DNA of 64,000 nt, taken from Roseivirga thermotolerans (GTDB taxonomy: Bacteria; Bacteroidota; Bacteroidia; Cytophagales; Cyclobacteriaceae). The position numbers were made by a program, and so were the translations under genes. The notes under the pieces were generated by a model. It made no database searches and was not told where the DNA came from. It saw only the letters and a program-made list of their open reading frames with translations. Each line of letters begins with the position of its first letter. Position 1 is the first letter of the stretch. The DNA is taken from the NCBI RefSeq assembly GCF_014653175.1, contig NZ_BNAG01000002.1, forward strand, positions 558,001 to 622,000, in the 5' to 3' direction. Shown one piece after another: positions 2,594-20,224 of this stretch.

Positions 2594-3318
2594 TGAGCCG
2601 GGTTAAAATTTTAGTTGTTGAAGACGAAATTGTAATAGCCGATAATATTTGCCTCATTCTGGAAGACCTGGGGTACGAAGTACTTGAGCCGGCTATTAAT
2701 TACGAAGAAGCACTGCAAACCATAGAAGCCGAAAAACCCGACCTGGCCATTTTAGACATTCAGTTGGGAGGGAAGAAGGATGGCGTAGACCTGGCCTGGA
2801 CCATTAAGGAGCAGTTCGACTTTCCTTTTATTTTTTTAACCTCCAATGCCGATGCGGGCACCATTGAGCGTGTAAAGAAAGTGGCCCCTCCGGCCTATCT
2901 GGTAAAGCCTTTCAAAAAAGACGATCTATATACCTCCATCGAATTGGCTTTGCATAATTATACCGAGCAAAAAAACAACACCAAGGTAGAGGAGGAGCTC
3001 CTCATTAAAGATGCCATTTTCATTAAAGAAAAGAATCTCTTCCATAAGGTTAAGCTTAGCGATATTCGGTTTTTACGAAGCGACCATGTCTATGTAGAAG
3101 TGCATACCGTTAGCGGGCAAAAGCACCTCATCAGAGGTAGTTTAACAGACCTTTCGGAAAGGCTTCCTCAAAACTTCTACAGAACCCATCGGAGTTTTAC
3201 TATCAATGTAGATCACATGGAGGCTATTAACTCTGCCTATGTGCTTATGAACAACGAGCAGATACCCATCGGAAAAAACTACCGGGACGATTTACTAAGG
3301 AAGATTCGTGTGGAATAA
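2593..3318 (+). CDS. LytTR-family response regulator
   Basis: A 241-residue two-domain regulator. The receiver domain (about 1-122) has the acidic pocket VVEDE near residue 10, phospho-acceptor Asp55 (AILDIQ), Thr83 (FLTS) and Lys105 (LVKPF). The C-terminal LytTR DNA-binding domain (about 140-241) has the typical RSDHVYVEV and FYRTHRSFTIN segments. It overlaps the kinase stop codon by one base. LytTR proteins bind direct repeats ahead of target genes, often for surface or exopolysaccharide functions. The giant surface-protein gene lies downstream on the same strand and is a reasonable but unproven target. Confidence 0.93.
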   Translation: MSRVKILVVEDEIVIADNICLILEDLGYEVLEPAINYEEALQTIEAEKPDLAILDIQLGGKKDGVDLAWTIKEQFDFPFIFLTSNADAGTIERVKKVAPPAYLVKPFKKDDLYTSIELALHNYTEQKNNTKVEEELLIKDAIFIKEKNLFHKVKLSDIRFLRSDHVYVEVHTVSGQKHLIRGSLTDLSERLPQNFYRTHRSFTINVDHMEAINSAYVLMNNEQIPIGKNYRDDLLRKIRVE

Positions 3319-3357: not shown

Positions 3358-3872
3358 AGTAATATCCCACCCTCTATGGCATGCCTACCTCAGTAGCTAC
3401 CTTCGGCTGCACCTCACCCTAAATAGCACGTGACCGCGAAAAGCAAGTCACCCTAAAAAGTACGTCACCCTGAACTTGTTTCAGGGTCTACTCAAAAAGA
3501 ACACCGCCCTTAGTAATACGCCACCTCGAATAGCACGTCAGCCTGAGTAGCACATCAACTCGAATAGCGCATCACTCTAAATAGCACGTCACCCTGAACT
3601 TGTTTCAGGGTCTACTCAAAAAAAAACATCGCCCTTAGTAATACGCCACCTCCAATAGCACGTCAGCCTGAGTAGCACATTAACTCGAATAGCGCATCAC
3701 TCTAAATAGCACGTCACCCTGAACTTGTTTCAGGGTCTACTCAAAAAAACATCGCCCTTAGTAATACGCCACCTCGAATAGCACGTCAGCCTGAGCAGCA
3801 CATCAATTTGAATAGCCCATCACCCTAAATAGCACGTCACCCTGAACTTGTTTCAGGGTCTATTCAAAAAAG
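3358..3872 (+). repeat. Nested non-coding satellite: 17-bp monomers in a ~124-bp higher-order repeat
   Basis: Monomers of exactly 17 bases with consensus ARTAGCRCRTCANYYYR run head to tail (for example at 3529, 3546, 3563 and 3580). Five monomers (85 bases) plus a 39-base hairpin and A-tract segment make a unit of 124 bases. Successive units begin at about 3473, 3597, 3722 and 3845; the last is truncated. Degenerate 17-base monomers extend upstream to about 3358, where the array seems to decay. Each unit carries the hairpin CCCTGAACTTGTTTCAGGG (7-bp stem, 5-base loop). Length changes between units come mainly from the A-tract after the hairpin. A 17-base period is not a multiple of three and the frames are broken, so this is not protein-coding. 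Confidence 0.9.
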
Positions 3873-4308
3873 AACACCGAAAGCCCGCCAATCAGAAGAC
3901 AGTACACAAAGCGGTCCCTTGCGTTACAATGGCCTTTCCAGGTCTCTAAAGCTAGTTTTTCAGCCTTTGCTCCGGGCAAAAACTAAACCCGAAAAGGAGG
4001 AGGCTCAGAACAAAAATCACTACTTTCAGAACAATTGCTCAGGTTGCCAGCTATACATTATTATCTTTGTGCGCTTACTGCGTAAGCCTCAACGTCAATT
4101 TTTGCATTTCTTCCCTTTCACTCTGAGAGGGAGTTTCTGCCCTACCATGGTAGAGTGTCAAAAGCCAAATCGAGGCCCGAACCAAATAGAAATTATCAAT
4201 CAATTCACATTCAGAACAAGCCAGCCCTAGTTCAGAACAAAATTTTTCATGCTGTATAAACCATTGGTTTATTCGCTACTAACTATTGAATACCGAAACA
4301 TCAACTTT
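3873..4308 (+). other. Leader region of the giant surface-protein gene
   Basis: This stretch of about 430 bases holds no convincing gene; an open frame at 3919-4230 starts with TTG and shows no protein-like pattern. It contains TATCTTTG at 4062-4069, a match to the Bacteroidetes -7 element TAnnTTTG, which would give a leader of roughly 230 bases, although no well-spaced TTG lies upstream. A perfect 12-base palindrome CTACCATGGTAG at 4142-4153 lies in that leader and could be an operator or RNA hairpin. Confidence 0.35.
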
Positions 4309-7300
4309 ATGAATTTTAATCCTTTCATCAGACTCGTTGTCTTTGTTGGTCTTTTATGCTTTGGGAGCAACTCGCTTTTAGGGCAGGCAAGCAGAGATCC
4401 TTACACTACGTTACCTACGCCCATAGAGGTCACCTCCTTTCCTTACCTAGAAGAGGGCTTTGACTCAGATGCTACAGCCAACGGAACACCCATAGGTATG
4501 ATGGGCCAATGTTCAGATGTACCTTGTTGTTCGGGAGTGTGGTATAAAGTGACTGTTCCTTCTAACGGATCATTGTTTGCAGCTTTTGATAGGATGAATC
4601 CTTTAGGTACAGGCTTAAAGCTCTATAAAGCTGATAGCGAGAATATCACTGAAACATCGGAGCTTACTTATGTTTCATCTCCAATGAACTTCTGTGGCTT
4701 TAAAAGTACCATGGGGTCTGATACGGGTTATAAATGGTCAGAAAAGTATTTCTCCGAAGAAGCAAAGAATAGTGATGACTATGATGAAGACTGGGAGTCT
4801 TACTATCTAAGAGCTGATGCGATAGAATTTCCTGTTGACCTAAGTAGCTACCCAAGTAATGGTTGGAGGACTGATCGAACACTTTTAGTCAATGAACACT
4901 ACATTGAATCTGGTACCTATTGGATTTATGCTTTTAATACAAATCAACAAGCAAACCTTCAAGGCGAACCTTCACGCTTGGTGATTGATTTTGTTGAATT
5001 ATGTCCTGATGGTTTTACCTGTAATAATGTAAGCGAGACCATTTGTAGCTCAGAGAGTTTCACTACAACCGGAGGGCAGGTGATTACAGAAACCACCTCT
5101 GTTAAGGAAACCATCGGAACCACCATTACTACTTATAATATCACAGTCGATGAATCCATTACCTGTTGCCCTGATGGATTTACCTGTAACGAGGTGAATG
5201 TAACAGAGTGTGCGAATCTTTCCTATACCACTCCACTCGGTAATGTAATTACAGAAACAGGCTCGGTTCTGGACGAAGACACCAACGCCCAAACCAGAAC
5301 AGTATATAATGTCACTTTCGATAGGGCAGAAGTTGATTTAGATGTTTTTGTAGATGCCACCATTGCCGAATCAGGTAACGTAACCTATCAGGCCAACACC
5401 AACGCTACAGGTGTACTTTCCTTCGATAAATCACAGCAATTCTGGGTAGACCTAAATGCATTGCAAGATGATTTAGATGGAAAAAGCCGCTCTGTCTTTA
5501 TGTGGGTAAAGACAGAAAACAGTGTGAGTAGCAATCAGGTACTGTTTGCGGTAAATGCAGCTAACGGAGATAACCTGTCTTTCCTTTGGGTTGATGATGA
5601 TGGCAATAATCTGGAAGTAAACAGAGGGGGCACCACCAATGAGTCTTCATCGTACAACATGGGCGGTAACATCTGGCACTATGTAGGCTGGACCTACGAT
5701 CATACCACAGGTGAAACGGTAACTTATGTTGATGGTATAGAAAATGACCGATTTACTACCGGAACCTCCGTTCCAAATGCATCTGCACAATATTCATTGG
5801 GTCAGGAGTTTGATGGAGGTAGTACCAGTGATTTTTACAATGGCGACATGGCAGAAATCTCTGTATGGGACGAAGTGCTTACCGGGGCCGATATTAGAGA
5901 AGCCATGAAGGCCAAAATCAATAATGGCCATCCTAAATATGCCAATCTTGTGGGCTATTACTCCGTATTTGGAGATTGCAATGACGATACTGCCGTACTC
6001 AAAGACCATTCAGGCAAAGGGAATGATGGAGTAATGAAAAACAATTTTGTCATTGACTTCAGAAATGTTCAGTCGGTTGCTGGTTTCAATGCCGTAGACT
6101 GGTATGAGAATATTTCATGGAAAAAAGACGGAACAGAAGTTTCTACAGCTAATACCTTTACCACCAACGTGGAAGCAGGTAACTATACATTTACTGCGGC
6201 TCGCAGCTTTATTCAAAGCACCGACACATGGTCTATGACGGTAAATGACAATACCACTACGGTAGACCAAATTACTGACGAAACCCTGTGCTCAAACGAT
6301 CCCGTAACCCGGACGGTAACAACCAGTCAGGTGAATTATCTGGACTTTGAAGAAACCGAGAGCAATTACATTGAAGTGAACACTGTGGCCAATGCTTTGG
6401 TTGGAAAAAACCGTTCCGTCTTTATGTGGATCAACAAAGAAAGTAATATAGGCAGCGGTGATTTCAACAATGTATTTGTGCTTCAGAACACTGACATAGA
6501 CCAGGAGAGCCGCTTTTACTTAAGAGAAACCGAGAAGCTGGCTGTGTTTGATGGTTCCAGCCGAATTAACTCCTCTACCGCGCTTAGCAATGGCACCTGG
6601 TACCATGTAGGCTATACTTACGATCATAGCACCGGTGAAACCAAGATTTATGTAAATGGTACAGAAGAAGACAGTGGTACGCTCAATATGCCTGTTTCAG
6701 ACGGTTGGCTTGCCCTACTGGGTGCACGCCATAACGATAACAAACCGGAAGGGTTCTTAGACGGCAAGCTTGCGGAAATTACCATTTGGGACAAAGTGCT
6801 GAGCAACGAAGAAGTTTCTGCAATTATGACTGCTGCCCCGGCCCATGATGCCACTAATTTGGTAGCAGCTTATGGTACACATAAGAATATTGCAGACAAC
6901 CAAATGCGCGACCTTACCGACAACGGCAACAATGGCCTGGCCTCTCACAGCACCATATTTGTAACAAACCAGGAAGCTGAAATCACTAATTATGATGCCT
7001 CTGCTAATTATTCATTCTCTTGGAAAAAGGATGGTGCTGAATTTGATACCGATGCCACCGGCAACATAACGGTAGAAGAAGGTACCTCACAATATTCCGT
7101 AACCTATGGTACACCGCTATTCCAAAAATCAGATGACTTTAGCTTGAGCTATACTAATTTGATTCCTACCCAGCCTGTTTCGAAAACAGCGGGTGTATTA
7201 GGCAGTGTTACTTTCGAAGTGGAAGAAATAGCTGGAGCCACTTATCAGTGGTATGAAAAGAAGGACCAAAAAGAGTATACCAACCTAAATGAGATAAATG

Positions 7301-10300
7301 CATTTGGCACGGGAATAAACGGTAGGGGTCAAGATATTTTTATTCATGAGAATAATCTGCTGGTTGCTACAGGACGTGGTCTATACCTGAGCAAAAACCT
7401 GGGACAAACCTGGAGTTATTATAACGCTTTAACCAACGGGTTTTCAACATCAGATTATGTAACAAAAGTTTTTGCAACCGATGAAAAACTCTTTGCAGGA
7501 ACACTGGAAGGCCTCTCTATATCAGATGATATGGGCGAAACCTGGTCTACCGTATTTGCTAATGAAAGAGTCTACAACGTTTTTGAGTATGAAGGAGACC
7601 TTTATGTTGTGGCAGGAAAGGTTTACAAATCCGAGGATGGAGGAGATAGCTGGAGTACTTTTCTTTCTAATATGACTTACGGACATAATACCAGGCTAAT
7701 TAGCAACATCTTCTTTCATGGCAATACCATTTATGTTTCGAATAGTGGTGGATTATTTAAATCAGAAAATGGCGGTAGTACTTGGGCAGACATCTCTTTA
7801 AACTCAAGTGACTCCTATCTAAGGCATACTATTGCAGCAGATGATAATTACATCTTTTACTCCTTCAATTCTGCTCAGGACCTGGCGAGGTCTTCCGATG
7901 GGGGAGCAACCTGGGAGATAGTTTTTGAACGATCTAACAATGAGTCGGGTGCAGACTACATTGAAAACATAAAGCTTATTGATGGAGAACTTTATATTTC
8001 ACATTTAACAGCCCTCTATAAGTCTAGTGACTATGGCGATAACTGGGAGTTGGTCTTCGATATGGAAGCAGGTGATTATAGCTTCGGAGGTTTCGAATTT
8101 GTCAATGATGATATTTATGTAGTCCCCGCCCATCGAAACAATGTGGTTATCTATAGTGATAAGGTTCGTTTGTCTAATACAAATACTGGAACCAATCAAA
8201 TACAAGGAGCAACGTCCCACCAGCTTACCGTTTCGAACCTTAGCTTAGACGTTTCCGGATTTAAGTATTCTGTAGTAGTTACTAAAGATGGTTGTACGCA
8301 AACATCAGATAATGCCTCCCTCACAGTACTAGATGTGCCGGTCGCATTGTCCTATACTCCTTCTAAGGCAAGCACCGATATTGCTATCGATACCGAACTG
8401 AGCATTGAGTTTAGCAGGCCTGTCTCCAAAGGTACAGGAGAGTTGAAAATCTATGATTATGCTACCGATGCCCTAGTGCAAACACTTACGGCAGATGATC
8501 TGACTATTGATGGAACAACGGTTTCTATTACTTCCGGTGTTTCGCTGGATTATGCCACCCAATACTACGTTACTTTGAGTGCCAATTTGGTAAAGGATGA
8601 AAGCGATGTCGGAAACCTGGCTATAACCAATAAAGACACCTGGACTTTCCACACAGCGTGTGAGCCTTTGATACTTACACAACCAACAAATACTGTCGGG
8701 TATGTGGTAGGGAGTGCTACTTTCTCAGTGCCGGAGGTTTCAGGGGCAAGCTATCAGTGGTTCGAAAAATCAATAGGGGGAGGCACCTTTGAGGAAGCTA
8801 CAGAAATTACCAATATACCCGTACATCAGTCGGCATTTGCAGGGAACTACATTTCTTCCGTAGCGGCTACCTCAACTAAGTTTTTTGCTATTAACCGAGC
8901 CATTGTGCCGGGCGTTAGTGTGTTTGTTTATACCACAGATATGGGACAGAACTGGACCACGGTTCCCCTAGGGCAAAACGGGTTCCCCAATGCCTCATTG
9001 ATAACACAAGTTCGTACTTCGGGAGACAATGTTTATGTAGGTTCAGATTCAGGAATAAGTATTTCTGAAGACAACGGAGAAACCTGGACCACCATATCGG
9101 CCAATGAACGTGGCTTCCCGGATGTTCCTTATGTGGCTTCCCTTGCTGTAGATGCCTCTGCTCTTGTGGTAGGTACAAATCGAGGAGTGGGTATTTCAAA
9201 AGATGGAGGTGAAAGCTGGACCTTTGTAAGCACTCAAGAAACGGGTTTCTTAAGTCAGGAAGCGGTTGTAACGGTATCTAAATCGGGTGAGACAATATAT
9301 GCAGGTACAGGAAACGAAATCTCTATATCTAAAGATGGTGGTGAAAGTTGGAATCTTGTACTTACCTCCGATAATGGATTTAGCATCAACAACATTGTCA
9401 GACATATAACTTCTAGAGGCAGCAATGTTTTTGTTTCTACCAATGAGGGATTACTTATTTCAACAGACCGGGGAGACACCTGGACAAGTATATCCAGTAA
9501 TGAGCAAGGAATCTCAGAGTTTAGTTCGTCAGTAAGTCCAGCTGTCTATGACGGAACCAAACTATATGTTTCACCCAATGGAGTTGGACTGTTCGAGTCT
9601 GACGACTTAGGGCAAAGCTGGACCTCGATAAGCAATAGTTTAATAAGTGCTACGAATAAGATCAACAGGGTCGACTTGTCTAACAATGTAGTCTTTATTG
9701 TCAATGACGACACCAAGAAAGTATTACAGCTTAATTCAGACAAGTCTTTGGAAAACAACCCAGATAGTTCTGCCGATAACCAAATTCAAGGAGCTACTAC
9801 GGCTACACTCACCATTAATAACTTGACCGAAGATCTTGATCAATCGCAATACTTTGTAGTAGTCACCAAAGCTAACTGCGAAGAAGTGTCAAATACAGCT
9901 GTGCTAACTGTTTCAGCTTCGGTGGATTCTCCTGTATTGAATGACCTTACCCCGGCAGATGATGCCGTGGATGTAGCCACCAACACAGACTTCGAGTTTG
10001 TCTTCGATCAGGCCGTTGCTGCTCGCTCGGGAGACATACTCATTAAGCGCACTTTAGACGATGCTACTGTAGCTACCATTGCAGTAAATTCAGACCAGGT
10101 AACAGTCAATGGCACCACTGTACAGCTTTCGCTGGGAGATGTTACACTCGACAATGGAACAGAGTATTACATCTTAATTCCCGAAACCGCGTTTTCCGTA
10201 GCCAATACAGAGGTGTTCTTTTCAGGAATTGTCAATAAAGCCTCCTGGAGTTTTACCACCGAAGAAGCCGTGGAGGCACTGCCAATTACTTCTACCAACC

Positions 10301-13300
10301 CCAGTGCAACTAAAAATGCACTTATGGACAGTGATAAGTTGTCTTTCACCTTTGGTGAGTCTATCCAAAAAGGTTCGGGAACACTAACAGTTTACAGAAC
10401 CAGCGATGATAGCGTGTTAGAAACCATCGATGCTTCTGCTGTAACCATAACTAATCAGCCGCAGTTTTCGCGAGCCTATGCCACCATCAGGTTCTCACAA
10501 ACCTGGGAAAGAGGAGTGTCTTACTATGTGCAGTACGACCAGGGCTTTATACTAAACCTTGACGGAACTAAAGCGCTTGCGGAAGTAAACGATAAGACAA
10601 CCTTTACCTTTACTACCGAAGATTTTGAAGAGGACATTATTACCCGCTTCTTCCCGGCCACAGGAAGCTCTTCCTATGAAGCCGATTCGGAAGATGACTT
10701 TAAGCTCTTTACCAGCCAAAACGTAGGCCTGGAAAGAGACCCGCTAGGAGCTTTTAAAATATACAAAGCCTCTACCAATGAATTGGTGAAGACCATTGCA
10801 TACGATGGAGAAAATAGCAGAGACCTTTCGTATGGAAGTGATGAACCTATTATCCGCTTCGAATTCGATGATGATGAACTGGAGCCGGGAACCGAATACT
10901 ATGTATTGATAGACGATGGCTTTATTGTTTCCTATGAAGAAGCCAGATATCACGTGGGTATTTCCGACCCAACCGTTTGGCGATTCACTACTTTGGCCTT
11001 GCCAAGCACCCCAATGCTCACTGCCACAAGTCCGGCAGACGATGCCACAGATGTGGCCATTTCGGCCAACATAACACTGACCTATAGCGAAAACATTCAG
11101 GCTTATGTATACGGAGAAGGAGGAACCACAGCCAACAATGTGGTGCTATATGATGCCAATGATAATGTGGTTGAAACTTTCCCTGCCAACACCTTGACCT
11201 ACAGTGGTTCTAAAGTAACCATCAATCCGTCTAGCGATTTAGCGTACAATACGGCTTACTACCTTCTGATAGAGAACGAAGCCTTCATTAGCAATAATGA
11301 AGTGAAAACTGCAGCCATTACCGATCCAACGGTGATTAGCTTTACCACGGCAAGCCAGCCTAACACGGCACCGGTAGCTAGTAGTGTAAGCATTGCTGGT
11401 AGCTTAGAAGCCAATCTGCAGCTTACAGGTTCTTATAACTATAGCGATGCAGATACCGATGCAGAATCGGGTTCAACTCTTCAATGGTATGTAGCCGATG
11501 ATGCGAGCGGGGCCAATAGAACTGCAATAAGTGGAGCAACCTCAGGCACATATACCCTCACTTCTTCTGAAGTGGGTAAGTATATCACGTTTGCGGTAAC
11601 ACCAAACGATGGAACGGATGCAGGAACACAAACATTCGCCACCTATACAGGGCCGGTAGTGGCTGCTGTGGTACCTACGGTAATCAGCACTATACCAGCC
11701 GATGGCTCGGTAGATGTGGCCAAAGATGCCAACCTGAGTTTCACCATGAGCGAAACGGTGACCAAAGGAACAGGTAATATCACTCTGACACCTGCAACAG
11801 GAACTGCAACTGTTATTGATGTAACTTCTAATGAGGTGGCTATTTCAGGAGCAGATGTAACTATTAACCCAGACAGTGATTTACTGGAAGGGCAATTCTA
11901 CACGGTTACTTTCGATGCCTCAGCCTTTGTTGATGCCGATGGCAATAATTCAGCAGGACTGACCAGCCAAACCACCTGGAACTTTACAGTAAAAGAAGCC
12001 AATGTGGCTCCAGTGGCGCAGGCAGTGGCCATTAAAAAATCATTGGTTGTTGATGGGGTACTGGAAGGTTCGTACGCATATTCAGATGCGAATGACGACC
12101 CTGAATCGGGTACGACCTTCCAATGGTACCGAGCCGATAATTCTGCAGGTGCTAATAGAGTGGCTATTGCAGGAGCAACCACCAAAAGCTACACCGTTGT
12201 GAATGATGACAATGGTAAGTATTTGAGCTTTGAAGTAACGCCTGGCGATGGTGTATTGACCGGAACAGCAGAAGAAAGCACATTCTTTGGGCCAATAGTG
12301 ATTAACGATGGCTTTACCAATATTGCTCCGGCCTTTACCTCCGATGCCGTCACCACTGTGATGGACAACGAGACATACACCTACACAGTCACCTATGAAG
12401 ACCTGAACAACGATGTGCCTACACTGGTAAAACTGGTGGGCCCTACATGGCTTTCAGTAAACGGATTTGTACTGAGTGGTAACCCTTCTTCATCAGATGT
12501 GGGAGAACATTTAGTACAACTCGAGCTGGCAGATCAGTTCGATGATAAGGCCTATCAGCAATTCACTATTACTGTTGAGGCAAGCAACACAGCACCGTCA
12601 GTAAATGCAGTAAGTACCGATGTAGTGTTCAGTCTGCAAGTAGATGCCCCATTGCGCGGTGTTTATAACTTTATAGATGCCGAATTGGATGCCGATAATT
12701 CCACATTTAAATGGTACCGTTCTGACGACAACTCAGGAACCGGCAAAACAGAAATAGCAGGAGCCACCACCACTACTTATGTATTAACGGCTGCCGATGC
12801 CGGTAAATACATCAGCTTTGAGGTAACACCGAACGATGGTAAGGTTAGTGGTACCGATGTTGAAAGCCTAGCGGTAGGCCCTATTGCCAAGAAAACGCCA
12901 AGCCTTTCACTAAGTGATATAGCCAAAACTTATGGTGATGCCGACTTTGACTTAAGTGCTTCGACCAATTCATCGGGGGCAATTACTTACACCTTCGATA
13001 ATGACCAAACCGGAGCGGCTATCAATGGTTCTACTGTGACCTTGGGTAATGCGGGTGAGATTACCGTTAATGTAAGCCTTGCCGAAGATGCCGAGTATAC
13101 AGCTCGTCAGGTACAAGGCACCATAACAGTGGCTAAAAAGGCCATAGCATTGAAAGCAACCGATGCCGGTAAGGTAGTTGACGATACCGATCCGACCTTA
13201 GAATTTACCGTAACCAGCGGTTCTATAGTTGGTGACGATGAAGTGGTGACCGTAAGCAGAGATGCTGGTGAAGCACCGGGTACTTATGCCATTAACCTGA

Positions 13301-16300
13301 CTGACGGTACCGATGCCGCTAACTATGAAATAACGGCTGTTCCGGGAGTATTCACTATTTCACAAAGAAGCCTGACCATAACAGCCCAGGCCGCAACCAA
13401 AACCTATGGCGACAATGACCCTGACTTTGCTTATTCAATCACCAGTGGTTCATTGAATACCGGTGATGAACTGAGTGGTGCAATTACCAGGGTTGCAGGT
13501 GAAGATGTAGGTACTTATGCCTTGCAGAGTAGCCTGTTCAACCCTAACTACGACATAAGTTTCGTGAGTGCTGACCTGACCATCGAAAAGGCCGATTTGA
13601 CTGCCGCGGCAGACGATCAGACCAAATACTTGGGAGAGGCTAACCCTGAGCTTACCATAAGCTATTCAGGTTTTGTAAATGGAGACTCTAAAGCCAATAT
13701 TACAGAACCGACCATAGCCACCACGGCAACCGAGTCGAGCCCCGTTGGAACGTATGATATCACCCTTACTGGTGGTGCTGCAACTAACTATAACCTCAAT
13801 TTAGTTAATGGTCAACTGACTGTAGAGCAGAGACCATTCATTACCACCTGGGAGATAACCAGCAGAGATGTGAATCGTTCCAGAACATTCTTCAACACTT
13901 TGGGGAGTCACACCTATCTCTACGACATTGATTGGGGTGATGGCACTGTTGAAACAAACCAGACGGGCGCAGCCTCACATACTTATGTGGCTGAGGGCAC
14001 TTACACTGTTAAGGTAAGTGGGCAGTTTCCACAGTTTGAATTGTCTTTCTCCAGACTTCGATCTGTTGAGCAGTGGGGCGATATTGAGTGGAAGAGTATG
14101 GAAGGTGCATTCATCGCTGCTGATTTCGATATCAATGCTACTGATGCTCCAAACCTTACCCAGGTAACCTCAATGAAACGCATGTTCGAGAGAACCTTCA
14201 TTGGTAACCCAGACCTAACATCTTGGGACGTTTCTAACATCACCGATATGTCTGAGATGTTCAAAGAGAGCGATTTTAATGGAGACATAAGTGGCTGGAA
14301 TGTCAGTGCAGTAACCGATATGTCCTACATGTTTGCTCAGGCTGAAAACTTCAATTCATCCATCTCCAACTGGAATACATCCGCTGTTCAAGATATGTCT
14401 TACATGTTCAGCTATGCTCAGAGTTTTGATCAACCAGTTGATGCTTGGGATGTAAGCTCGGTAACATCGATGTCGTCCATGTTTGCTGATGCAGCGGTGT
14501 TCAATCAAGATCTCAATTCATGGGATGTGAGCAGTGTGACTAAAATGGATAAGATGTTCGATAATGCATTGCTATTCAATGGTGATATCACAGGCTGGAA
14601 TGTGAGTAGTGTAACCGATATCTCGAACATGTTTGACGATGCCAAAGCATTCAATCAGGACATCGATGGCTGGAATGTGAGCAACGTAACCAGAATGAAT
14701 GCGATGTTCAATGATGCTGACGCCTTTAACCAAGACCTTAACTCCTGGGATGTGAGCAAGGTGGAAACCTTCCAGGCCATGTTCCAGAATAACGATGCGT
14801 TTAATGGCGACATCAGCAACTGGGATATTTCCAATGCCACTAAATTGGAGCGTATGTTCGAAGATGCCCATGCCTTTAACCAAGACATAGGCAACTGGCA
14901 GCCGACCAATGCCGAAAACCTTACGGCCATGTTCAGAGATGCCAGATCATTTAACCAGAATATTAGCTCATGGAGATTCCCTAATGCCGACAGGCTAAAC
15001 CAAATGTTCTATGAGGCAGCGGCCTTCAATCAGGACATTTCATCGTGGGAGACTGGCAATATTGTAGACATGAGTTCCATGTTCGAAAATGCCGAGTCCT
15101 TTAATCAGAATATTGGAAACTGGGATGTAAGCTCAGTAACCAATTTTGGCAGCATGTTCAGAGGAGCCTCGGTGTTCAATCAGGACATCAGTGAGTGGGA
15201 TATGAGTGCCGCCACAAGCATGAATAGCATGTTCAAAAATGCCTCAGCCTTCAACCAAAATATTAGCGGTTGGAATTTGACTACTGGCGATAATGGCATT
15301 ACCAGCATGAACAACCTGTTTGAAAATGCGACAGCATTCGATCAGGACCTCAGCGCCTGGGACATTTCAGGAGTTCGTAGTCTAAACAGTATTTTTAGCC
15401 ATTCAGGTATGTCGGTGGCTAACTACGATGCTACCCTTATTGGTTGGGCCGCTCAACAATTACAAAGTGATGTCAATTTTGGAGTTGAAGGCCTTCAATA
15501 CTGCGCAGGTGCAGCCGCCAGACAATCTTTGATTGACAACTTCAACTGGACAATAGAGAACGATTCGCAGGCTTGTTCAGCCACGGTGACCATTGCCGAT
15601 GTATCGGCCAATGAAGATGATGGTGCTATTACGGTGACCCTAACTTCCGATGCCTTTGTAGTCGATGGCTTCACGGTAGATGTAAGTACAAGCAATGGAA
15701 CTGCCGAAGCAGGTACGGATTACACCGCTGTGACTGCTGAAACAATCACTTTTGCCGGAACAGTAGGAGAGACCCAAAGCTTTACCATCACCCCAACGGC
15801 CGACTCGAGTGTGGAGAGCGATGAGACACTGATGGTAAGCATGAGCAACTTGGTGACAGATGCTGCGAACACAGTAACCATTACGGATGAGGCGATAATA
15901 ACCATCCTAAACGATGATGTGCCAGTAGTTTCATTCAACACAACGGCTGAGAGCAGTGCAGAATCAGTGACCAGCAGTAGCATTGTGGTGAACCTGGATC
16001 AGGCTGGTCTTTCTGCCGCCACGGTTGACTATACAATAACAGGTACAGCCACAGGAGGTGGAGTAGATTACACCCTTGCTAATGGTTCGCTCAGCTTTGC
16101 AGCAGGAGAGTTAAGTAAAACGATAGACCTGACAATTGTTGACGATGCACTTATTGAGGAAAATGAGACGGTAGTGATAACCCTATCCAATGCCTCTGGT
16201 GCCAGCTTGGGTACCAATACGGTGTTCACTTATACCATAGTGAACAACGATGCACAGGTGACCATTGAAGATGTGAGCCAGTTTGAAGATGGAGAGTCTT

Positions 16301-17859
16301 TCCTAATCACAGCTACACTTGAAGGGACTATAGAAGGCGGATTTACAGTTGATTTATCGACTGCCGATGGCACGGCTACAGTGGCCGATGGAGACTACAC
16401 TGCTGTAAGTGGAGCTACATTAACATTTAGCGGAACCGATGGCGAAACTCAACAACTCGACATTGCACCGGGCGTTGATAGTAAACTCGAAGCCGATGAG
16501 ACCTTTACCGTTTCCTTGAGCAACCTGGCCGGAACCACAGCCAATGTAGTAATCACAGATCAGGCCGTATTGACAATCAAGAATGACGATGTTGCGGCTG
16601 TAACCCTTGCCGATGCCAGCGGAAATGAAGGAGACGGAGCCATTACAGTTACCGCTACCATAGACAATGCCGTTCAGGGCGGGTTCACGGTAGAAGTAAA
16701 TACAGCAGATGGAACAGCAACACTAACCGATAGCGACTACACAGCCGTTGCGGGACAGGTGTTGACCTTTGCCGGAACAGCCGGAGAAACACAAACCTTT
16801 ACCGTAACTCCAACCAACGATCTGGTTATTGAGGCCAATGAAACACTGACCGTTTCAATGAGTAAGTTAAGCACTGCCTTGGGGGTTGATATTACGGATG
16901 GAGCCACGGTAACCATTGTCAATGATGACTTCAATAACTTCCCAACCGACATCACTATAAGTGCCACTTCAATAGCGGAGAACAATGCGTTGGATGCAGC
17001 TATTGGAACACTGACTACGGCCGATGCCGATGCCGGTAACACCCACACTTATGCATTAGTAAGTGGGGCAGGAGATACCGACAATGCCAGCTTCACGGTT
17101 GACGGTTCAACCTTAAAAACGAACAATATTTCGTTCAACTTTGAGGATAAAGCCAGCTACTCTGTTCGTATTGAAACCAACGATGGAGAAGGCGGAACCT
17201 TTGCCAAGGCCTTTGAAATTACGGTGACCAATGTAAACGAAGCACCATTTACGCTGAGCCTTACCAATGCCACCATTGAAGAAGCCGATGAAGCCCAAGA
17301 GGTAGGTCAGCTTATGTCGCTCGACCCGGACAATGGAGACAGCTTTACCTATAGCCTGGTGGCCGGTGATGGCGATGCCGATAATGCGCAGTTTGCCATT
17401 AGTGGCAACACCTTGAGCACAGCCGGAGCCATAGATTTTGAAGATGGAGCAAGCCGAAGCATCCGTGTGCAGGTAGCCGATGCAGGAGGGCTTACTTTCG
17501 AGCAAACCTTCAGCATAACCATTGAAGATGTGGTGGCCGAGCCGGTGAGGGAATACACCCAGAACCAACCAGGTGCCGATGTAAAGAACGTGTTCTCGCC
17601 AAACGGTGATGGAATCAACGAAACCTGGGTGATTGAAGACCTGCTGGACAACCCGTTCAACCAAGTAAAAATCTTTGCACAAGGTGGAAAACTCATCTAC
17701 AGTAAAGTGAATTACACCAACGATTGGGGCGGAACATTCAAAGACAATCCGGTACCGGATGGTACCTACTATTACGAGATACTCATCTTTGAAAACGAGC
17801 AGTCCACAAGCCCAGCCAGAACCATTAAAGGCTTCTTAACCATCATTAGAAACAGATAA
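4309..17859 (+). CDS. Giant mosaic surface protein with T9SS type B sorting domain (4516 residues)
   Basis: Signal peptide (1-26, cut after LLGQ). Cys-rich repeats containing CPDGFTCN lie near 231-340. Two LamG/concanavalin-like domains (about 365-585 and 675-885) are followed by two Ig-like domains, each interrupted by a sortilin-type Asp-box propeller (about 950-1340 and 1453-1872). Next come several SbsA-type Big_5 Ig domains, AIR9-like Ig domains (SDADTDAESG...LQWY pattern), a cadherin-like domain, MBG-type domains with KTYGD motifs (about 2863-3180) and a PKD-like unit (DWGDGTVE). Then about 16 DUF285/PARCEL repeats of 25 residues (about 3300-3700), four Calx-beta domains and two cadherin repeats. 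The C-terminus has NVFSPNGDGINETW and ends in a CHU_C/gliding-associated type B domain. Such proteins are exported by T9SS and held on the surface with a PorP/SprF partner, which is the next gene. I start at 4309 because the ATG at 4249 would bury the signal peptide. Probable adhesin or matrix protein. Confidence 0.9.
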   Translation: MNFNPFIRLVVFVGLLCFGSNSLLGQASRDPYTTLPTPIEVTSFPYLEEGFDSDATANGTPIGMMGQCSDVPCCSGVWYKVTVPSNGSLFAAFDRMNPLGTGLKLYKADSENITETSELTYVSSPMNFCGFKSTMGSDTGYKWSEKYFSEEAKNSDDYDEDWESYYLRADAIEFPVDLSSYPSNGWRTDRTLLVNEHYIESGTYWIYAFNTNQQANLQGEPSRLVIDFVELCPDGFTCNNVSETICSSESFTTTGGQVITETTSVKETIGTTITTYNITVDESITCCPDGFTCNEVNVTECANLSYTTPLGNVITETGSVLDEDTNAQTRTVYNVTFDRAEVDLDVFVDATIAESGNVTYQANTNATGVLSFDKSQQFWVDLNALQDDLDGKSRSVFMWVKTENSVSSNQVLFAVNAANGDNLSFLWVDDDGNNLEVNRGGTTNESSSYNMGGNIWHYVGWTYDHTTGETVTYVDGIENDRFTTGTSVPNASAQYSLGQEFDGGSTSDFYNGDMAEISVWDEVLTGADIREAMKAKINNGHPKYANLVGYYSVFGDCNDDTAVLKDHSGKGNDGVMKNNFVIDFRNVQSVAGFNAVDWYENISWKKDGTEVSTANTFTTNVEAGNYTFTAARSFIQSTDTWSMTVNDNTTTVDQITDETLCSNDPVTRTVTTSQVNYLDFEETESNYIEVNTVANALVGKNRSVFMWINKESNIGSGDFNNVFVLQNTDIDQESRFYLRETEKLAVFDGSSRINSSTALSNGTWYHVGYTYDHSTGETKIYVNGTEEDSGTLNMPVSDGWLALLGARHNDNKPEGFLDGKLAEITIWDKVLSNEEVSAIMTAAPAHDATNLVAAYGTHKNIADNQMRDLTDNGNNGLASHSTIFVTNQEAEITNYDASANYSFSWKKDGAEFDTDATGNITVEEGTSQYSVTYGTPLFQKSDDFSLSYTNLIPTQPVSKTAGVLGSVTFEVEEIAGATYQWYEKKDQKEYTNLNEINAFGTGINGRGQDIFIHENNLLVATGRGLYLSKNLGQTWSYYNALTNGFSTSDYVTKVFATDEKLFAGTLEGLSISDDMGETWSTVFANERVYNVFEYEGDLYVVAGKVYKSEDGGDSWSTFLSNMTYGHNTRLISNIFFHGNTIYVSNSGGLFKSENGGSTWADISLNSSDSYLRHTIAADDNYIFYSFNSAQDLARSSDGGATWEIVFERSNNESGADYIENIKLIDGELYISHLTALYKSSDYGDNWELVFDMEAGDYSFGGFEFVNDDIYVVPAHRNNVVIYSDKVRLSNTNTGTNQIQGATSHQLTVSNLSLDVSGFKYSVVVTKDGCTQTSDNASLTVLDVPVALSYTPSKASTDIAIDTELSIEFSRPVSKGTGELKIYDYATDALVQTLTADDLTIDGTTVSITSGVSLDYATQYYVTLSANLVKDESDVGNLAITNKDTWTFHTACEPLILTQPTNTVGYVVGSATFSVPEVSGASYQWFEKSIGGGTFEEATEITNIPVHQSAFAGNYISSVAATSTKFFAINRAIVPGVSVFVYTTDMGQNWTTVPLGQNGFPNASLITQVRTSGDNVYVGSDSGISISEDNGETWTTISANERGFPDVPYVASLAVDASALVVGTNRGVGISKDGGESWTFVSTQETGFLSQEAVVTVSKSGETIYAGTGNEISISKDGGESWNLVLTSDNGFSINNIVRHITSRGSNVFVSTNEGLLISTDRGDTWTSISSNEQGISEFSSSVSPAVYDGTKLYVSPNGVGLFESDDLGQSWTSISNSLISATNKINRVDLSNNVVFIVNDDTKKVLQLNSDKSLENNPDSSADNQIQGATTATLTINNLTEDLDQSQYFVVVTKANCEEVSNTAVLTVSASVDSPVLNDLTPADDAVDVATNTDFEFVFDQAVAARSGDILIKRTLDDATVATIAVNSDQVTVNGTTVQLSLGDVTLDNGTEYYILIPETAFSVANTEVFFSGIVNKASWSFTTEEAVEALPITSTNPSATKNALMDSDKLSFTFGESIQKGSGTLTVYRTSDDSVLETIDASAVTITNQPQFSRAYATIRFSQTWERGVSYYVQYDQGFILNLDGTKALAEVNDKTTFTFTTEDFEEDIITRFFPATGSSSYEADSEDDFKLFTSQNVGLERDPLGAFKIYKASTNELVKTIAYDGENSRDLSYGSDEPIIRFEFDDDELEPGTEYYVLIDDGFIVSYEEARYHVGISDPTVWRFTTLALPSTPMLTATSPADDATDVAISANITLTYSENIQAYVYGEGGTTANNVVLYDANDNVVETFPANTLTYSGSKVTINPSSDLAYNTAYYLLIENEAFISNNEVKTAAITDPTVISFTTASQPNTAPVASSVSIAGSLEANLQLTGSYNYSDADTDAESGSTLQWYVADDASGANRTAISGATSGTYTLTSSEVGKYITFAVTPNDGTDAGTQTFATYTGPVVAAVVPTVISTIPADGSVDVAKDANLSFTMSETVTKGTGNITLTPATGTATVIDVTSNEVAISGADVTINPDSDLLEGQFYTVTFDASAFVDADGNNSAGLTSQTTWNFTVKEANVAPVAQAVAIKKSLVVDGVLEGSYAYSDANDDPESGTTFQWYRADNSAGANRVAIAGATTKSYTVVNDDNGKYLSFEVTPGDGVLTGTAEESTFFGPIVINDGFTNIAPAFTSDAVTTVMDNETYTYTVTYEDLNNDVPTLVKLVGPTWLSVNGFVLSGNPSSSDVGEHLVQLELADQFDDKAYQQFTITVEASNTAPSVNAVSTDVVFSLQVDAPLRGVYNFIDAELDADNSTFKWYRSDDNSGTGKTEIAGATTTTYVLTAADAGKYISFEVTPNDGKVSGTDVESLAVGPIAKKTPSLSLSDIAKTYGDADFDLSASTNSSGAITYTFDNDQTGAAINGSTVTLGNAGEITVNVSLAEDAEYTARQVQGTITVAKKAIALKATDAGKVVDDTDPTLEFTVTSGSIVGDDEVVTVSRDAGEAPGTYAINLTDGTDAANYEITAVPGVFTISQRSLTITAQAATKTYGDNDPDFAYSITSGSLNTGDELSGAITRVAGEDVGTYALQSSLFNPNYDISFVSADLTIEKADLTAAADDQTKYLGEANPELTISYSGFVNGDSKANITEPTIATTATESSPVGTYDITLTGGAATNYNLNLVNGQLTVEQRPFITTWEITSRDVNRSRTFFNTLGSHTYLYDIDWGDGTVETNQTGAASHTYVAEGTYTVKVSGQFPQFELSFSRLRSVEQWGDIEWKSMEGAFIAADFDINATDAPNLTQVTSMKRMFERTFIGNPDLTSWDVSNITDMSEMFKESDFNGDISGWNVSAVTDMSYMFAQAENFNSSISNWNTSAVQDMSYMFSYAQSFDQPVDAWDVSSVTSMSSMFADAAVFNQDLNSWDVSSVTKMDKMFDNALLFNGDITGWNVSSVTDISNMFDDAKAFNQDIDGWNVSNVTRMNAMFNDADAFNQDLNSWDVSKVETFQAMFQNNDAFNGDISNWDISNATKLERMFEDAHAFNQDIGNWQPTNAENLTAMFRDARSFNQNISSWRFPNADRLNQMFYEAAAFNQDISSWETGNIVDMSSMFENAESFNQNIGNWDVSSVTNFGSMFRGASVFNQDISEWDMSAATSMNSMFKNASAFNQNISGWNLTTGDNGITSMNNLFENATAFDQDLSAWDISGVRSLNSIFSHSGMSVANYDATLIGWAAQQLQSDVNFGVEGLQYCAGAAARQSLIDNFNWTIENDSQACSATVTIADVSANEDDGAITVTLTSDAFVVDGFTVDVSTSNGTAEAGTDYTAVTAETITFAGTVGETQSFTITPTADSSVESDETLMVSMSNLVTDAANTVTITDEAIITILNDDVPVVSFNTTAESSAESVTSSSIVVNLDQAGLSAATVDYTITGTATGGGVDYTLANGSLSFAAGELSKTIDLTIVDDALIEENETVVITLSNASGASLGTNTVFTYTIVNNDAQVTIEDVSQFEDGESFLITATLEGTIEGGFTVDLSTADGTATVADGDYTAVSGATLTFSGTDGETQQLDIAPGVDSKLEADETFTVSLSNLAGTTANVVITDQAVLTIKNDDVAAVTLADASGNEGDGAITVTATIDNAVQGGFTVEVNTADGTATLTDSDYTAVAGQVLTFAGTAGETQTFTVTPTNDLVIEANETLTVSMSKLSTALGVDITDGATVTIVNDDFNNFPTDITISATSIAENNALDAAIGTLTTADADAGNTHTYALVSGAGDTDNASFTVDGSTLKTNNISFNFEDKASYSVRIETNDGEGGTFAKAFEITVTNVNEAPFTLSLTNATIEEADEAQEVGQLMSLDPDNGDSFTYSLVAGDGDADNAQFAISGNTLSTAGAIDFEDGASRSIRVQVADAGGLTFEQTFSITIEDVVAEPVREYTQNQPGADVKNVFSPNGDGINETWVIEDLLDNPFNQVKIFAQGGKLIYSKVNYTNDWGGTFKDNPVPDGTYYYEILIFENEQSTSPARTIKGFLTIIRNR
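14170..15420 (+). repeat. About 16 tandem 75-bp coding repeats (DUF285/PARCEL type)
   Basis: Within the giant gene, units of 25 codons with the pattern AFNQDISxWDVSxVTxMxxMF repeat about sixteen times. The family was described as palindromic amphipathic repeat coding elements, spread by horizontal transfer among bacteria and protists and shared with Mycoplasma lipoproteins and BspA-like proteins. The last units degrade (one contains an insertion before SMNNLFENA), and the array ends with a Cys-containing cap. Confidence 0.85.
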
Positions 17860-17870
17860 ACATCAAAGTC

Positions 17871-19511
17871 ATGCATAAGCAAATGAAAAACATCAGAAAC
17901 AAATTCATCCTTGCCTTCACTATGGCTTTGATTGCAGTAGGGGCCAAGGCACAGCAAGTACCTTTGTACAACCAGTATTACAATGCCGCAACCTTGGCTT
18001 ACCCTTCCGGGGCAGTCTTTCAGGAGCACCGTTACATAAGTTTAGTGTACCGCGACCAGTTTGGGGGGCTGGTCGGTGCTCCAAAAAACTTCGCCCTGGC
18101 CTATAACTCCACCTTTAGAAATAAACTGGCCTTTACCGGTAACCTGACCACAGCCGATATAGGCTTCACCAGCCAGGTAAAACTTTCAGGAGGAGTAGGT
18201 TATAAGCTGTTTGGCGAAGGAAACGATGGACTGAGCATAGGTAGCCAGGTTGGTCTTTCCTTCTTCAGTCTGAACGAAGAAAGAGTGAACCCGGAAAACC
18301 CATCGGACAATGTGCTGGTAGACCTACTGGGCAATAACGGAAGCTCCTTGAGTGTAGACTTATCGGCCAGCTACAGACGTGGCAGATTAGGCGTAGACGT
18401 GGCCGTTCCAACCGTAATCAACCAAAGCCTGTCAGACGATGCCTATATCCGCATTAACGATGACAACGTGCCTGACTTTATAGGAGGCGTGCGTTACAGC
18501 TTTACCATTAATCCGGATCTGAGCCTGACACCCTATTTGGGCATGAGGATGAGAGAAACCATAGGTGCCGAACTAGACCTGATGGCTCAGGCCAATTTCA
18601 AGGAAAAATTCAGTGCCTCATTAGGCTATCGTGATAACTATGGCCCATCCATAGGCTTTGGTGCCCAGGTGTTGCCCAAGCTGTTGTTTAACTACAACTA
18701 TGATTTTGGGCAGAAAGACGCCCCGTTCCTGGCCGATGGCTTCAATGAATTTGGTGTTCACTATCAACTCAATACCCCGGAAGAAAAGGCCAATGTGTGT
18801 GAAGAAGAAGGGCTTGCCGTAGTGAACAGAATCATAGACCAGCGCATTTTCGATGAGAACCTGGTGAATCCGGAAGACAAGGAAAAGGCCCTGTGCTACT
18901 TGAAGAGCCTGGAAGAAGGCAAAAAGAAAGAGAAGAACCAAAGAGCCGAAGAAGCCTACAAAGCACTGTTTGAGAAGATAGAGCAAGAAGAGCTGGCCAA
19001 GGTAGAAGCCGCACGACTAGAAGCCCTGAGAGCTGAAAAAGCAAGACAAGACTCTATCAAGAATGCAGAAGCTGAAAGAGAGAGAAAGCGTATTGAGGCT
19101 ATAGAACTGGCAAGAATGAAAGAGTTGGAGAGACTGGCATTAGAAAGGGAGCAAGAAATAAAAAGAGCCCTGAGCCTGGCTACAGAATCAGTTGCCTTTA
19201 ACTCCGGTAGTGCCAACCTGAAAGAAGAGTCGCACGATGCGCTCAATCAGGTGGCCGAGTTAATGACTGCCAACCCAGAGTTGAGACTCAAGCTATCGGG
19301 CTATACAGACAATAGCGGTAATGCCCAGTCTAATCTGGAACTGTCCAAACGCAGGGCAGAGGCAGTTAAGGCCTACCTGATGAGCAAGGGAATTGAGGCC
19401 GACAGGTTAGAGGCCGAAGGCTATGGCATAGCCAATCCAAGGGCTGATAACAATACTGCAGAAGGCCGGGCCCTTAACAGAAGGGTAGAAATGGAAATCA
19501 TTAAAAAATAA
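17871..19511 (+). CDS. PorP/SprF-family T9SS outer-membrane protein fused to an OmpA domain
   Basis: A 546-residue fusion. A signal peptide (ending AKAQ) is followed by a PorP/SprF-type beta-barrel of about 280 residues that opens with VPLYNQYYNAATLAYPSG. A Lys/Glu-rich coiled coil (about 310-430) links it to an OmpA-like peptidoglycan-binding domain (436-546) with GYTDNSGN and LSKRRAEAV. PorP/SprF proteins act in type IX secretion, and stand-alone relatives next to type B substrates are thought to attach that substrate to the cell. The gene begins 12 bases after the giant protein ends, so the two form one operon, and the OmpA domain would tie the anchor to peptidoglycan. An ATG at 17883 is an equally good start. 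A strong terminator follows. Confidence 0.92.
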   Translation: MHKQMKNIRNKFILAFTMALIAVGAKAQQVPLYNQYYNAATLAYPSGAVFQEHRYISLVYRDQFGGLVGAPKNFALAYNSTFRNKLAFTGNLTTADIGFTSQVKLSGGVGYKLFGEGNDGLSIGSQVGLSFFSLNEERVNPENPSDNVLVDLLGNNGSSLSVDLSASYRRGRLGVDVAVPTVINQSLSDDAYIRINDDNVPDFIGGVRYSFTINPDLSLTPYLGMRMRETIGAELDLMAQANFKEKFSASLGYRDNYGPSIGFGAQVLPKLLFNYNYDFGQKDAPFLADGFNEFGVHYQLNTPEEKANVCEEEGLAVVNRIIDQRIFDENLVNPEDKEKALCYLKSLEEGKKKEKNQRAEEAYKALFEKIEQEELAKVEAARLEALRAEKARQDSIKNAEAERERKRIEAIELARMKELERLALEREQEIKRALSLATESVAFNSGSANLKEESHDALNQVAELMTANPELRLKLSGYTDNSGNAQSNLELSKRRAEAVKAYLMSKGIEADRLEAEGYGIANPRADNNTAEGRALNRRVEMEIIKK

Positions 19512-19550
19512 GTTGATGGGCTATTGAAGGTTGAGGTTAATAGCCAAAAT

Positions 19551-19577
19551 AAAAAGCCACCGTACGGGTGGCTTTTT
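19551..19577 (+). terminator. Rho-independent terminator
   Basis: The hairpin AAAAAGCCACC / GGTGGCTTTTT, with a short GTACG loop, ends in a T run 40 bases after the PorP/SprF-OmpA stop codon. It closes the giant surface-protein operon. Confidence 0.9.
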
Positions 19578-19637
19578 ATGGTTAGGTCAAAACGGATAAT
19601 CTTAGTATTTTCACTGAATAATTAAAAACCCTATACA

Positions 19638-19976
19638 ATGAAAAGAATATTCGCCTCTCTGTTTACGGTTTTTTTGTTGAGCTTTTTTGCAGGCCAGGTT
19701 ATGGCACAAGACAAAGTAGATGACAAAAAAAACTACCTTATTGTGGTTGCCAATTCGGCCGATAAAGCGGCCAATGAGCAAGTATTGGAGCAAATGAAGA
19801 AGAAATTCAAAGATGCCGGTTTGCACTACGATGCCAAGGAGAAGAAGTATTATGTATACATCGAAAAGTATTACAGTAAGTCTGGTGCCGATTATGCCGT
19901 TTGGTGGCATAAAAAAGAAAATCCAGACCTACCCAAAGTGTGGGCCAAGGCAGTGCCGGTAGAAACCAGTAACTAA
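19638..19976 (+). CDS. Small exported SPOR-like protein
   Basis: A 112-residue protein with a clear signal peptide (MKRIFASLFTVFLL... cut after VMAQ). The mature ~85 residues follow the pattern of a SPOR fold: strand YLIVVANS, a helix with EQVLEQMKKKFKDAG, strand KKYYVYIEKYY, a helix, and a last strand with VWAKAV. SPOR domains bind peptidoglycan stripped of side chains. Here the match is by pattern only, and the domain fills the whole protein. It has its own transcription unit just after the T9SS anchor operon, which suggests a related envelope role. Confidence 0.6.
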   Translation: MKRIFASLFTVFLLSFFAGQVMAQDKVDDKKNYLIVVANSADKAANEQVLEQMKKKFKDAGLHYDAKEKKYYVYIEKYYSKSGADYAVWWHKKENPDLPKVWAKAVPVETSN

Positions 19977-20185: not shown

Positions 20186-20224
20186 CTAACTTCGCCTAAC
20201 TTCGCCTAACTTCGCCTAACTTCG
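20186..20224 (+). repeat. Three perfect 10-bp tandem repeats plus flanking partial units
   Basis: TTCGCCTAAC occurs three times without a mismatch (20191-20220), preceded by CTAAC and followed by TTCG. The array sits 16-20 bases ahead of the probable TTG start of the next small gene, within its presumptive promoter or leader. Ten bases is close to one helical turn. Confidence 0.9.

Follow-up and report, generated by a model that had tools for sequence, protein, structure and literature searches.

A PorP/SprF carrier fused to an OmpA domain as a predicted wall-tethered partner of a giant type B surface protein in Roseivirga thermotolerans

We analysed a stretch of 64,000 nucleotides from Roseivirga thermotolerans (Bacteroidota; contig NZ_BNAG01000002.1, positions 558,001 to 622,000), referred to as the window below. 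It carries a giant gene for a type B substrate of the type IX secretion system (T9SS), P0001, directly followed by the gene for P0002, in which a barrel of the PorP/SprF carrier family continues into an OmpA domain. A gene for a small SPOR-like protein, P0003, lies downstream of this pair. In window coordinates, the features of the region are:

4309..17859, plus strand: P0001, giant T9SS type B substrate and probable surface adhesin (open frame; Pfam and NCBIfam profiles)
17578..17850, plus strand: type B sorting domain at the C-terminus of P0001, co-varying with the barrel (TIGR04131, PF13585)
17871..19511, plus strand: P0002, PorP/SprF carrier with OmpA fusion, 546 aa (family profiles, model)
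17946..18764, plus strand: PorP/SprF beta-barrel of P0002, residues 26-298 (PF11751; model strands)
18777..18908, plus strand: helical hairpin linker of P0002, residues 303-346, with Cys310 and Cys342, common to the OmpA and SPOR classes of carrier (alignment, model)
18924..19190, plus strand: long charged helix of P0002, residues 352-440 (~89 residues), a coiled-coil-like spacer of ~13 nm if straight (model, alignment)
19197..19481, plus strand: OmpA peptidoglycan-binding domain of P0002, residues 443-537, with D480, N488 and R495 (PF00691, structure match, alignment)
19549..19579, no strand assigned: terminator-like hairpin (13 pairs, flanked on either side by A/T tracts) between P0002 and P0003 (shuffle folding test)
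19638..19976, plus strand: P0003, small exported-looking SPOR-like protein of 112 aa, a neighbour here and not a member of the conserved unit

The longest open frame of P0001 spans 4249-17859, and the ATG at 4309, where a signal-peptide-like stretch begins (judged by eye), is the likely start. This start gives 4516 aa, the length claimed in the original prediction, and the sorting domain exceeded both family cut-offs (TIGR04131: 54.9 bits, cut-off 35; PF13585: 69.4 bits, cut-off 27), confirming a type B substrate of that size. Pfam matched two LamG-like, five Big_5, three MBG, five DUF285/PARCEL and four Calx-beta domains in P0001, and BNR-like stretches scored below the Pfam cut-off.

P0002 matched PF11751 (PorP_SprF) at 123.1 bits (cut-off 22.3) and TIGR03519 at 113.1 bits (cut-off 90.55) in its barrel, and PF00691 at 80.8 bits (cut-off 27.2) in its OmpA domain. 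The PorE profile NF052230 matched the OmpA part alone and reached 76.8 bits where 600 are needed, placing P0002 outside the PorE family. A structure model built on a 19-sequence alignment (mean pLDDT 82.0, pTM 0.54) contained, in this order, a signal helix, the barrel, the helical hairpin 303-346, a single helix 352-440 and the OmpA fold. The modelled barrel has 14 strands when the broken strand 203-214 is counted once. The profiles and the model thus bear out the earlier description of a PorP/SprF-type barrel that carries its own coiled coil and OmpA domain. Using this model as query, Foldseek found OmpA periplasmic domains as best matches (5wtl, E 1.5e-12), followed by a chain of a T9SS complex (8gl6_F, E 3e-10, TM 0.38 of the query), the porin OmpG (2f1c, E 1.9e-9) and the C-terminal domain of PorE (6top, E 1.3e-8). 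A viral fold library yielded matches to OmpA-like and generic barrels, and no relatives of the carrier were found in the viral contigs searched.

Peptidoglycan contacts of PorE are D576, N584 and R591 (PMC7463736). In P0002, D480, N488 and R495 have the same spacing, and all three residues are kept in 12 of 12 aligned OmpA-class proteins of Roseivirga, which makes a link to the cell wall the natural reading of the domain.

Cys310 and Cys342 of the linker hairpin (18798-18896) always occur together in the 19 aligned family members: a protein has either both or neither. Both occur in 11 of the 12 OmpA-class proteins and both are missing from the twelfth, as well as from all seven aligned SPOR-class proteins. 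This joint occurrence points to a possible internal disulphide within the hairpin.

The stop of P0001 and the start of P0002 are separated by 11 bases (17860-17870), one fewer than the 12 given in the original prediction. We searched for relatives of P0002 in 59 genomes, 19 of the same genus and 40 others. At least 22 matches extended as far as the barrel and scored 283 bits or higher. They come from 10 of the 19 same-genus genomes, and among the matches listed none of this kind lies in the 40 genomes outside the genus. The closest relative among those listed, in genome G013, has 86-87% identity to P0002. All 22 loci of this family (10 genomes, window locus included) were examined with their flanks; two of them, both from G003, look like near-copies at contig ends. 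A gene with a type B domain lies directly upstream of the carrier gene in 22 of 22 loci, with a gap of 1-13 bases. The upstream giant proteins differ in length, and their last ~300 residues stay similar. Across the 22 loci, pairwise distances between barrels and between C-terminal domains of the substrates correlated with r 0.87, and permutation of partners within genomes reached this value in 4 of 13,824 arrangements, the true pairing included. We conclude that the giant gene and the PorP/SprF-OmpA carrier gene are a conserved two-gene unit, beyond what chance would give. Of the three-gene module originally proposed, this pair stands and the small protein is not supported as a member, as set out below.

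Not all carriers of the family end in the same domain. Twelve of the 22 end in OmpA and nine in a SPOR-like domain; in the last one (L053) the contig stops before the final domain. The two classes can be aligned with each other over barrel, helical hairpin and helix. When the SPOR-like tails were searched alone, Pfam SPOR was matched in five of eight (best E 0.0011; the member shown reached 19 bits, cut-off 21), and among full-length SPOR-class carriers in two of seven (15.1 and 13.2 bits). A profile of the fused SPOR-like tails compared with the Protein Data Bank (PDB) by sequence found no SPOR structure. The matches behind the SPOR label of these tails are weak but consistent. R. thermotolerans itself has one carrier of each class, P0002 with OmpA and a SPOR-like carrier, L037, at G000:C2:765976-767160. 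An exchange of OmpA for a SPOR-like domain between sister carriers is what would be expected if wall binding itself were selected, and it suggests that this was the case.

Outside the genus, the parts of the fusion can lie on separate genes. In seven of nine non-Roseivirga loci from the genome scan (six with flavobacterial titles and one titled 'Bacteroidia bacterium'), a type B gene is followed by a stand-alone PorP gene (302-312 aa) and a gene for an OmpA-ended protein (626-773 aa). Given this three-gene order elsewhere, the carrier gene of Roseivirga appears to have arisen by the joining of two partners. Of the remaining two loci, L095 is a PorP-SPOR fusion (SPOR 33.7 bits, cut-off 21) and L099 has neither arrangement.

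We then used an order sample of 27 genomes with 204 PorP_SprF matches, of which the best were listed; the 14 listed frames of at least 417 aa and subsequently 100 further regions, chosen mostly by E-value, were examined. Real C-terminal extensions were present in 12 of the 14 long-frame candidates; the other two (L110 and L123) proved not to be fusions and were rejected. Four extended carriers have OmpA above the Pfam cut-off (L113, L115, L116 and L121, with L115 and L116 from separate genomes within a single genus), three have SPOR above the cut-off (L117, L118 and L120) and three below it (L112, L114 and L119). For L111 the sole match is to a profile built from the Roseivirga tails, and L122 matches neither SPOR profile. 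A type B domain is encoded directly upstream in 8 of the 12, and three of the four fused OmpA domains from these other families keep Asp, Asn and Arg at the PorE spacing. The original prediction was thus correct that PorP/SprF proteins usually stand alone, but OmpA and SPOR fusions also occur in other families and the locus is not unique. In a phylum sample, two genomes from a different order of the class encode a PorP domain followed by an Ala-rich coiled coil of hundreds to more than 1000 residues (L124:1846-6429 and L125:2138-5050). The gene directly before each of them matches the type B domain weakly; the tail of L124 looks SPOR-like by eye and is not recognized by Pfam.

Type B substrates are collected by, and retained on, a PorP/SprF carrier (PMC9143113, PMC12618676, PMC12635249). 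For the non-mobile ones, Gorasia et al. postulate a further tie to the wall via PorP-PorE-like complexes (PMC9143113). Paillat et al. report Fjoh_3952 of F. johnsoniae, a substrate with a PorE-like gene downstream of its carrier gene, as static, whereas SprB is mobile (PMC12618676). SprF has a Cys-X-Cys motif in its tail, which forms a disulphide with GldK on the moving track (PMC12635249). In P0002 there is no cysteine among the final 20 residues and hence no such motif.

To place this difference in a wider set, 126 carriers were classed for tail cysteines, 6 from the own genome and 120 from the sample, after a PorP fragment of 91 aa (L141) had been dropped. The groups follow our own definitions, based on tail length, on the presence of an OmpA-type gene no more than 400 bases downstream and, for 'core' PorP, on a TPRxR-like end. 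A cysteine in the last 20 residues occurred in 46 of 78 stand-alone carriers, in 0/14 fused carriers, in 0/15 with an OmpA-type gene downstream and in 0/19 core PorP proteins. Fused and PorE-paired carriers together thus differ from stand-alone ones (0/29 versus 46/78; Fisher p 3.5e-9, with relatives counted as independent). A FastTree phylogeny of 138 barrels accounts for the fused state with a minimum of four changes (two of them forced). In the same tree seven changes are required between the states OmpA, SPOR and none, and several long branches are flagged. These patterns lead us to a tentative generalization, which we rate at somewhat less than an even chance: the periplasmic tail of a PorP/SprF carrier may act as an address label for its type B surface protein, a short tail with a terminal cysteine directing that protein to the moving track and an OmpA or SPOR module, fused or supplied by a neighbouring PorE-like gene, directing it to peptidoglycan. 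The two labels would be mutually exclusive, and more than one exchange of the module would have taken place among related barrels.

For the window itself our reading is narrower. With a wall-binding domain in the same chain as the barrel, P0002 is read as a static, wall-tethered carrier for the giant surface protein and not as a gliding carrier, to which we assign a probability of roughly three in four. We infer that the T9SS would export P0001, and that its type B sorting domain would be collected by, and then kept on, the barrel of P0002, by analogy with SprB-SprF and PG1035-PorP. On the periplasmic side the same chain would continue through the helical hairpin and the ~89-residue helix to the OmpA domain. 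By gripping peptidoglycan, this domain would link the surface protein across the outer membrane to the wall, holding it static, possibly in adhesion.

Several observations weigh against this reading or against its extension to other carriers. The probable role of P0001 as an adhesin is read from its domain content, and the model of P0002, at a pTM of 0.54, does not position barrel, helix and OmpA domain against one another. Cys310 and Cys342 could in principle serve as donors of a disulphide to another protein, and a cysteine at any position up to 45 residues past the barrel is present in 3 of the 14 fused carriers (the window protein, L113 and L121). The carriers behind the cysteine contrast cluster on the tree of barrels: an independent-pairs test had one to four informative pairs, none of them opposite, and with a median p of 0.5 the contrast is not significant once relatedness is corrected for. 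None of the 46 tail-cysteine carriers has Cys-X-Cys and 43 have a single cysteine, so that their equivalence to SprF is something we infer; this slightly lowers the odds of the address-label generalization. In the fused OmpA domain of L113, a cysteine replaces the contact Asp. Finally, the SPOR-like tails of the genus fall below the Pfam cut-off where bit scores are shown, and five of seven full-length carriers of this class are without a SPOR match.

An alternative is that the pair consists of a gliding adhesin and a track-coupled carrier like SprB-SprF, with the OmpA domain as an accessory. The genome does encode a GldK above the family cut-off; apart from the lipobox cysteine, this protein has cysteines at 282, 326 and 396. 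It also encodes a GldJ-like protein, but this match (183.2 bits) is below the cut-off of 458.2. Two stand-alone carriers of the same genome, L059 and L060, have a cysteine near the C-terminus, and P0002 has its linker pair, which is however missing in one OmpA-class relative and in the seven aligned SPOR-class proteins. P0002 lacks a cysteine at its very end, and a wall-binding domain would oppose movement. We consider this alternative unlikely. Given the GldK cysteines and the two tail-cysteine carriers, both kinds of carrier, wall-anchored and tail-cysteine, may coexist in this cell. Gliding was among the uses first suggested for the locus and is the weakest of them: P0002 lacks the SprF-like motif, and the PorE-paired substrate of F. 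johnsoniae is static (PMC12618676). The literature covered held no usable statement on motility of Roseivirga, including the accessible part of PMC8489838.

Another alternative concerns what the wall contact is for: the OmpA domain may anchor the carrier on behalf of the envelope or the secretion apparatus and not hold P0001 under load. OmpA and SPOR domains often have envelope functions, which favours this explanation. So does the proposal that PorE-PorP anchors the PorK/N rings of the T9SS to the wall (PMC9143113). Against it, the genome carries another PorP gene next to gldK as well as a PorE-like gene that stands alone (365.5 bits, cut-off 600), and each of the 22 carriers of the P0002 family adjoins a type B gene of its own. 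An envelope function in place of substrate anchoring is therefore improbable in our judgement, and the static carrier for P0001 remains the preferred reading.

The third gene, P0003, has an N-terminus like that of an exported protein (by eye). On its own it matched nothing in Pfam at E 0.05, nor SPOR at E 1, and sequence searches of Pfam, NCBIfam and the PDB with P0003 returned chance-level matches only; a sequence comparison of its family profile with the PDB brought up no SPOR structure. Among nine family members SPOR was matched in three, with 23.8 bits for L069, 19.9 for L068 and 19.4 for L070 (cut-off 21). Flagellin_D3 was matched weakly in seven of nine (best E 0.00037), which counts against the SPOR label, although at its best it was less strong than SPOR. 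In an hhalign comparison, the P0003 family aligned with the fused SPOR-like tails over 51 columns (95%, E 4e-8). The P0003 model, whose alignment held SPOR-like tails, shows the beta-alpha-beta-beta-alpha-beta order of SPOR, with blocks within 31-100 at pLDDT of 90 or more. Fold searches ranked the peptidoglycan-binding domain of CwlC first (E 0.0056) and the SPOR domains of DamX, DedD and RlpA at ranks 5, 20 and 30; these SPOR-type matches are weak (E 0.0056 to 0.26, none reaching E 0.001), and ranks 2-4 went to small proteins of unrelated kinds. P0003 probably has a SPOR fold, as first suggested, favoured by the score of L069, the profile comparison and the fold model.

Membership of P0003 in the unit is a separate question. 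Folding of the stretch 19512-19600 between P0002 and P0003 gave a z of -5.48, and 0 of 200 shuffles folded as well. The hairpin at 19549-19579 was not listed by a promoter and terminator pattern scan, probably as the T tract forms part of the stem. Orthologues of P0003 were found in 9 of the 59 genomes, all within the genus, and in none of the eight relatives did the P0002 pair lie within 1.5 kb of the orthologue; the nearest carrier of the P0002 family was ~24 kb away (G008). In six of these eight the orthologue adjoins a gene with Asp-box-like motifs (label by eye), and in three of eight a homologue of the window gene 21453-22538, so synteny ties P0003 to other genes. Orthologues occur in nine of the ten same-genus genomes with a P0002-family carrier and in none of the nine without (Fisher p 0.00012, kinship ignored), a co-occurrence that may come from shared ancestry. 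That all three genes form one module with P0003 as a second wall contact is very unlikely, its SPOR-type model and co-occurrence with the carrier notwithstanding, and we rejected it on the lack of conserved adjacency (of the nine genomes with P0003, this one alone has the three genes side by side) and the terminator-like hairpin.

Upstream of the giant gene lie candidate regulators:

482..3318, plus strand: TPR-HisKA_2 histidine kinase and LytTR response regulator (Pfam)

Homologues of one or both are also found upstream of the OmpA-class pair in L038, L039, L042, L044 and L045, which suggests that expression of the pair may be regulated. Between the response-regulator gene and the giant gene there is a tandem array at 3448-3876 (unit of ~125 bases, 3.5 copies). 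The palindromic 23-mer CACCCTGAACTTGTTTCAGGGTC has 10 exact copies in the genome, four of them in this array, and none in a backwards-read control. Downstream of P0003, the 10-base unit CTAACTTCGC is perfectly repeated 3.9 times at 20186-20224. Two minus-strand genes at 21453-23623 look, by eye, glycoside hydrolase-like and carbohydrate-binding-like; the first of them is the one with homologues next to P0003 orthologues. A further minus-strand gene (26791-27747) encodes a coiled-coil protein with an OmpA-like C-terminus that weakly matches the OmpA part of the PorE profile; among the PorP_SprF matches of the genome, none falls on this gene. An Rfam scan of the window gave no match.

Which T9SS surface proteins move and which stay in place is an open question in Bacteroidota. 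The tie of static type B proteins to the wall via a separate PorE has the status of a postulate or speculation in the literature (PMC9143113, PMC12618676). A fused carrier is natural evidence for this idea and offers a one-gene handle for testing it. The constituent parts are known families. We found no published fusion of PorP/SprF to OmpA or SPOR, and neither the one-chain arrangement nor the OmpA/SPOR exchange nor the cysteine contrast, in a literature that was partly covered (most subscription papers lay outside). The PorP/SprF-OmpA architecture may well be visible in domain databases.

Among known proteins, OmpA-type porins combine a barrel and a C-terminal OmpA peptidoglycan-binding domain in one chain. 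P0002 differs from them in that its barrel is of the PorP/SprF family, a long helix lies between the two domains and it is paired with a secreted substrate. As in SprB-SprF of F. johnsoniae, a very large type B gene stands directly upstream of a dedicated carrier gene, but the Cys-X-Cys tail by which SprF is bonded to GldK is absent and P0002 ends in OmpA instead (PMC12635249). With Fjoh_3952-3951-3950 the locus shares a type B substrate, reported static in that case, a carrier and a PorE-like function; these occupy three genes there and two here, and the available part of that paper does not describe the carrier as fused (PMC12618676). The PorP-PorE-PG1035 system of Porphyromonas gingivalis likewise has a type B substrate, a barrel of the PorP/SprF family and a periplasmic OmpA-type wall link, but there the wall domain resides on a separate lipoprotein composed of TPR, beta-propeller, CRD and OmpA domains (PMC9143113). 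In P0002 the OmpA domain follows a helical spacer at the C-terminus of the barrel protein, without the other domains of PorE, and this single chain would do what PorP and a separate PorE are proposed to do together elsewhere in Bacteroidota.

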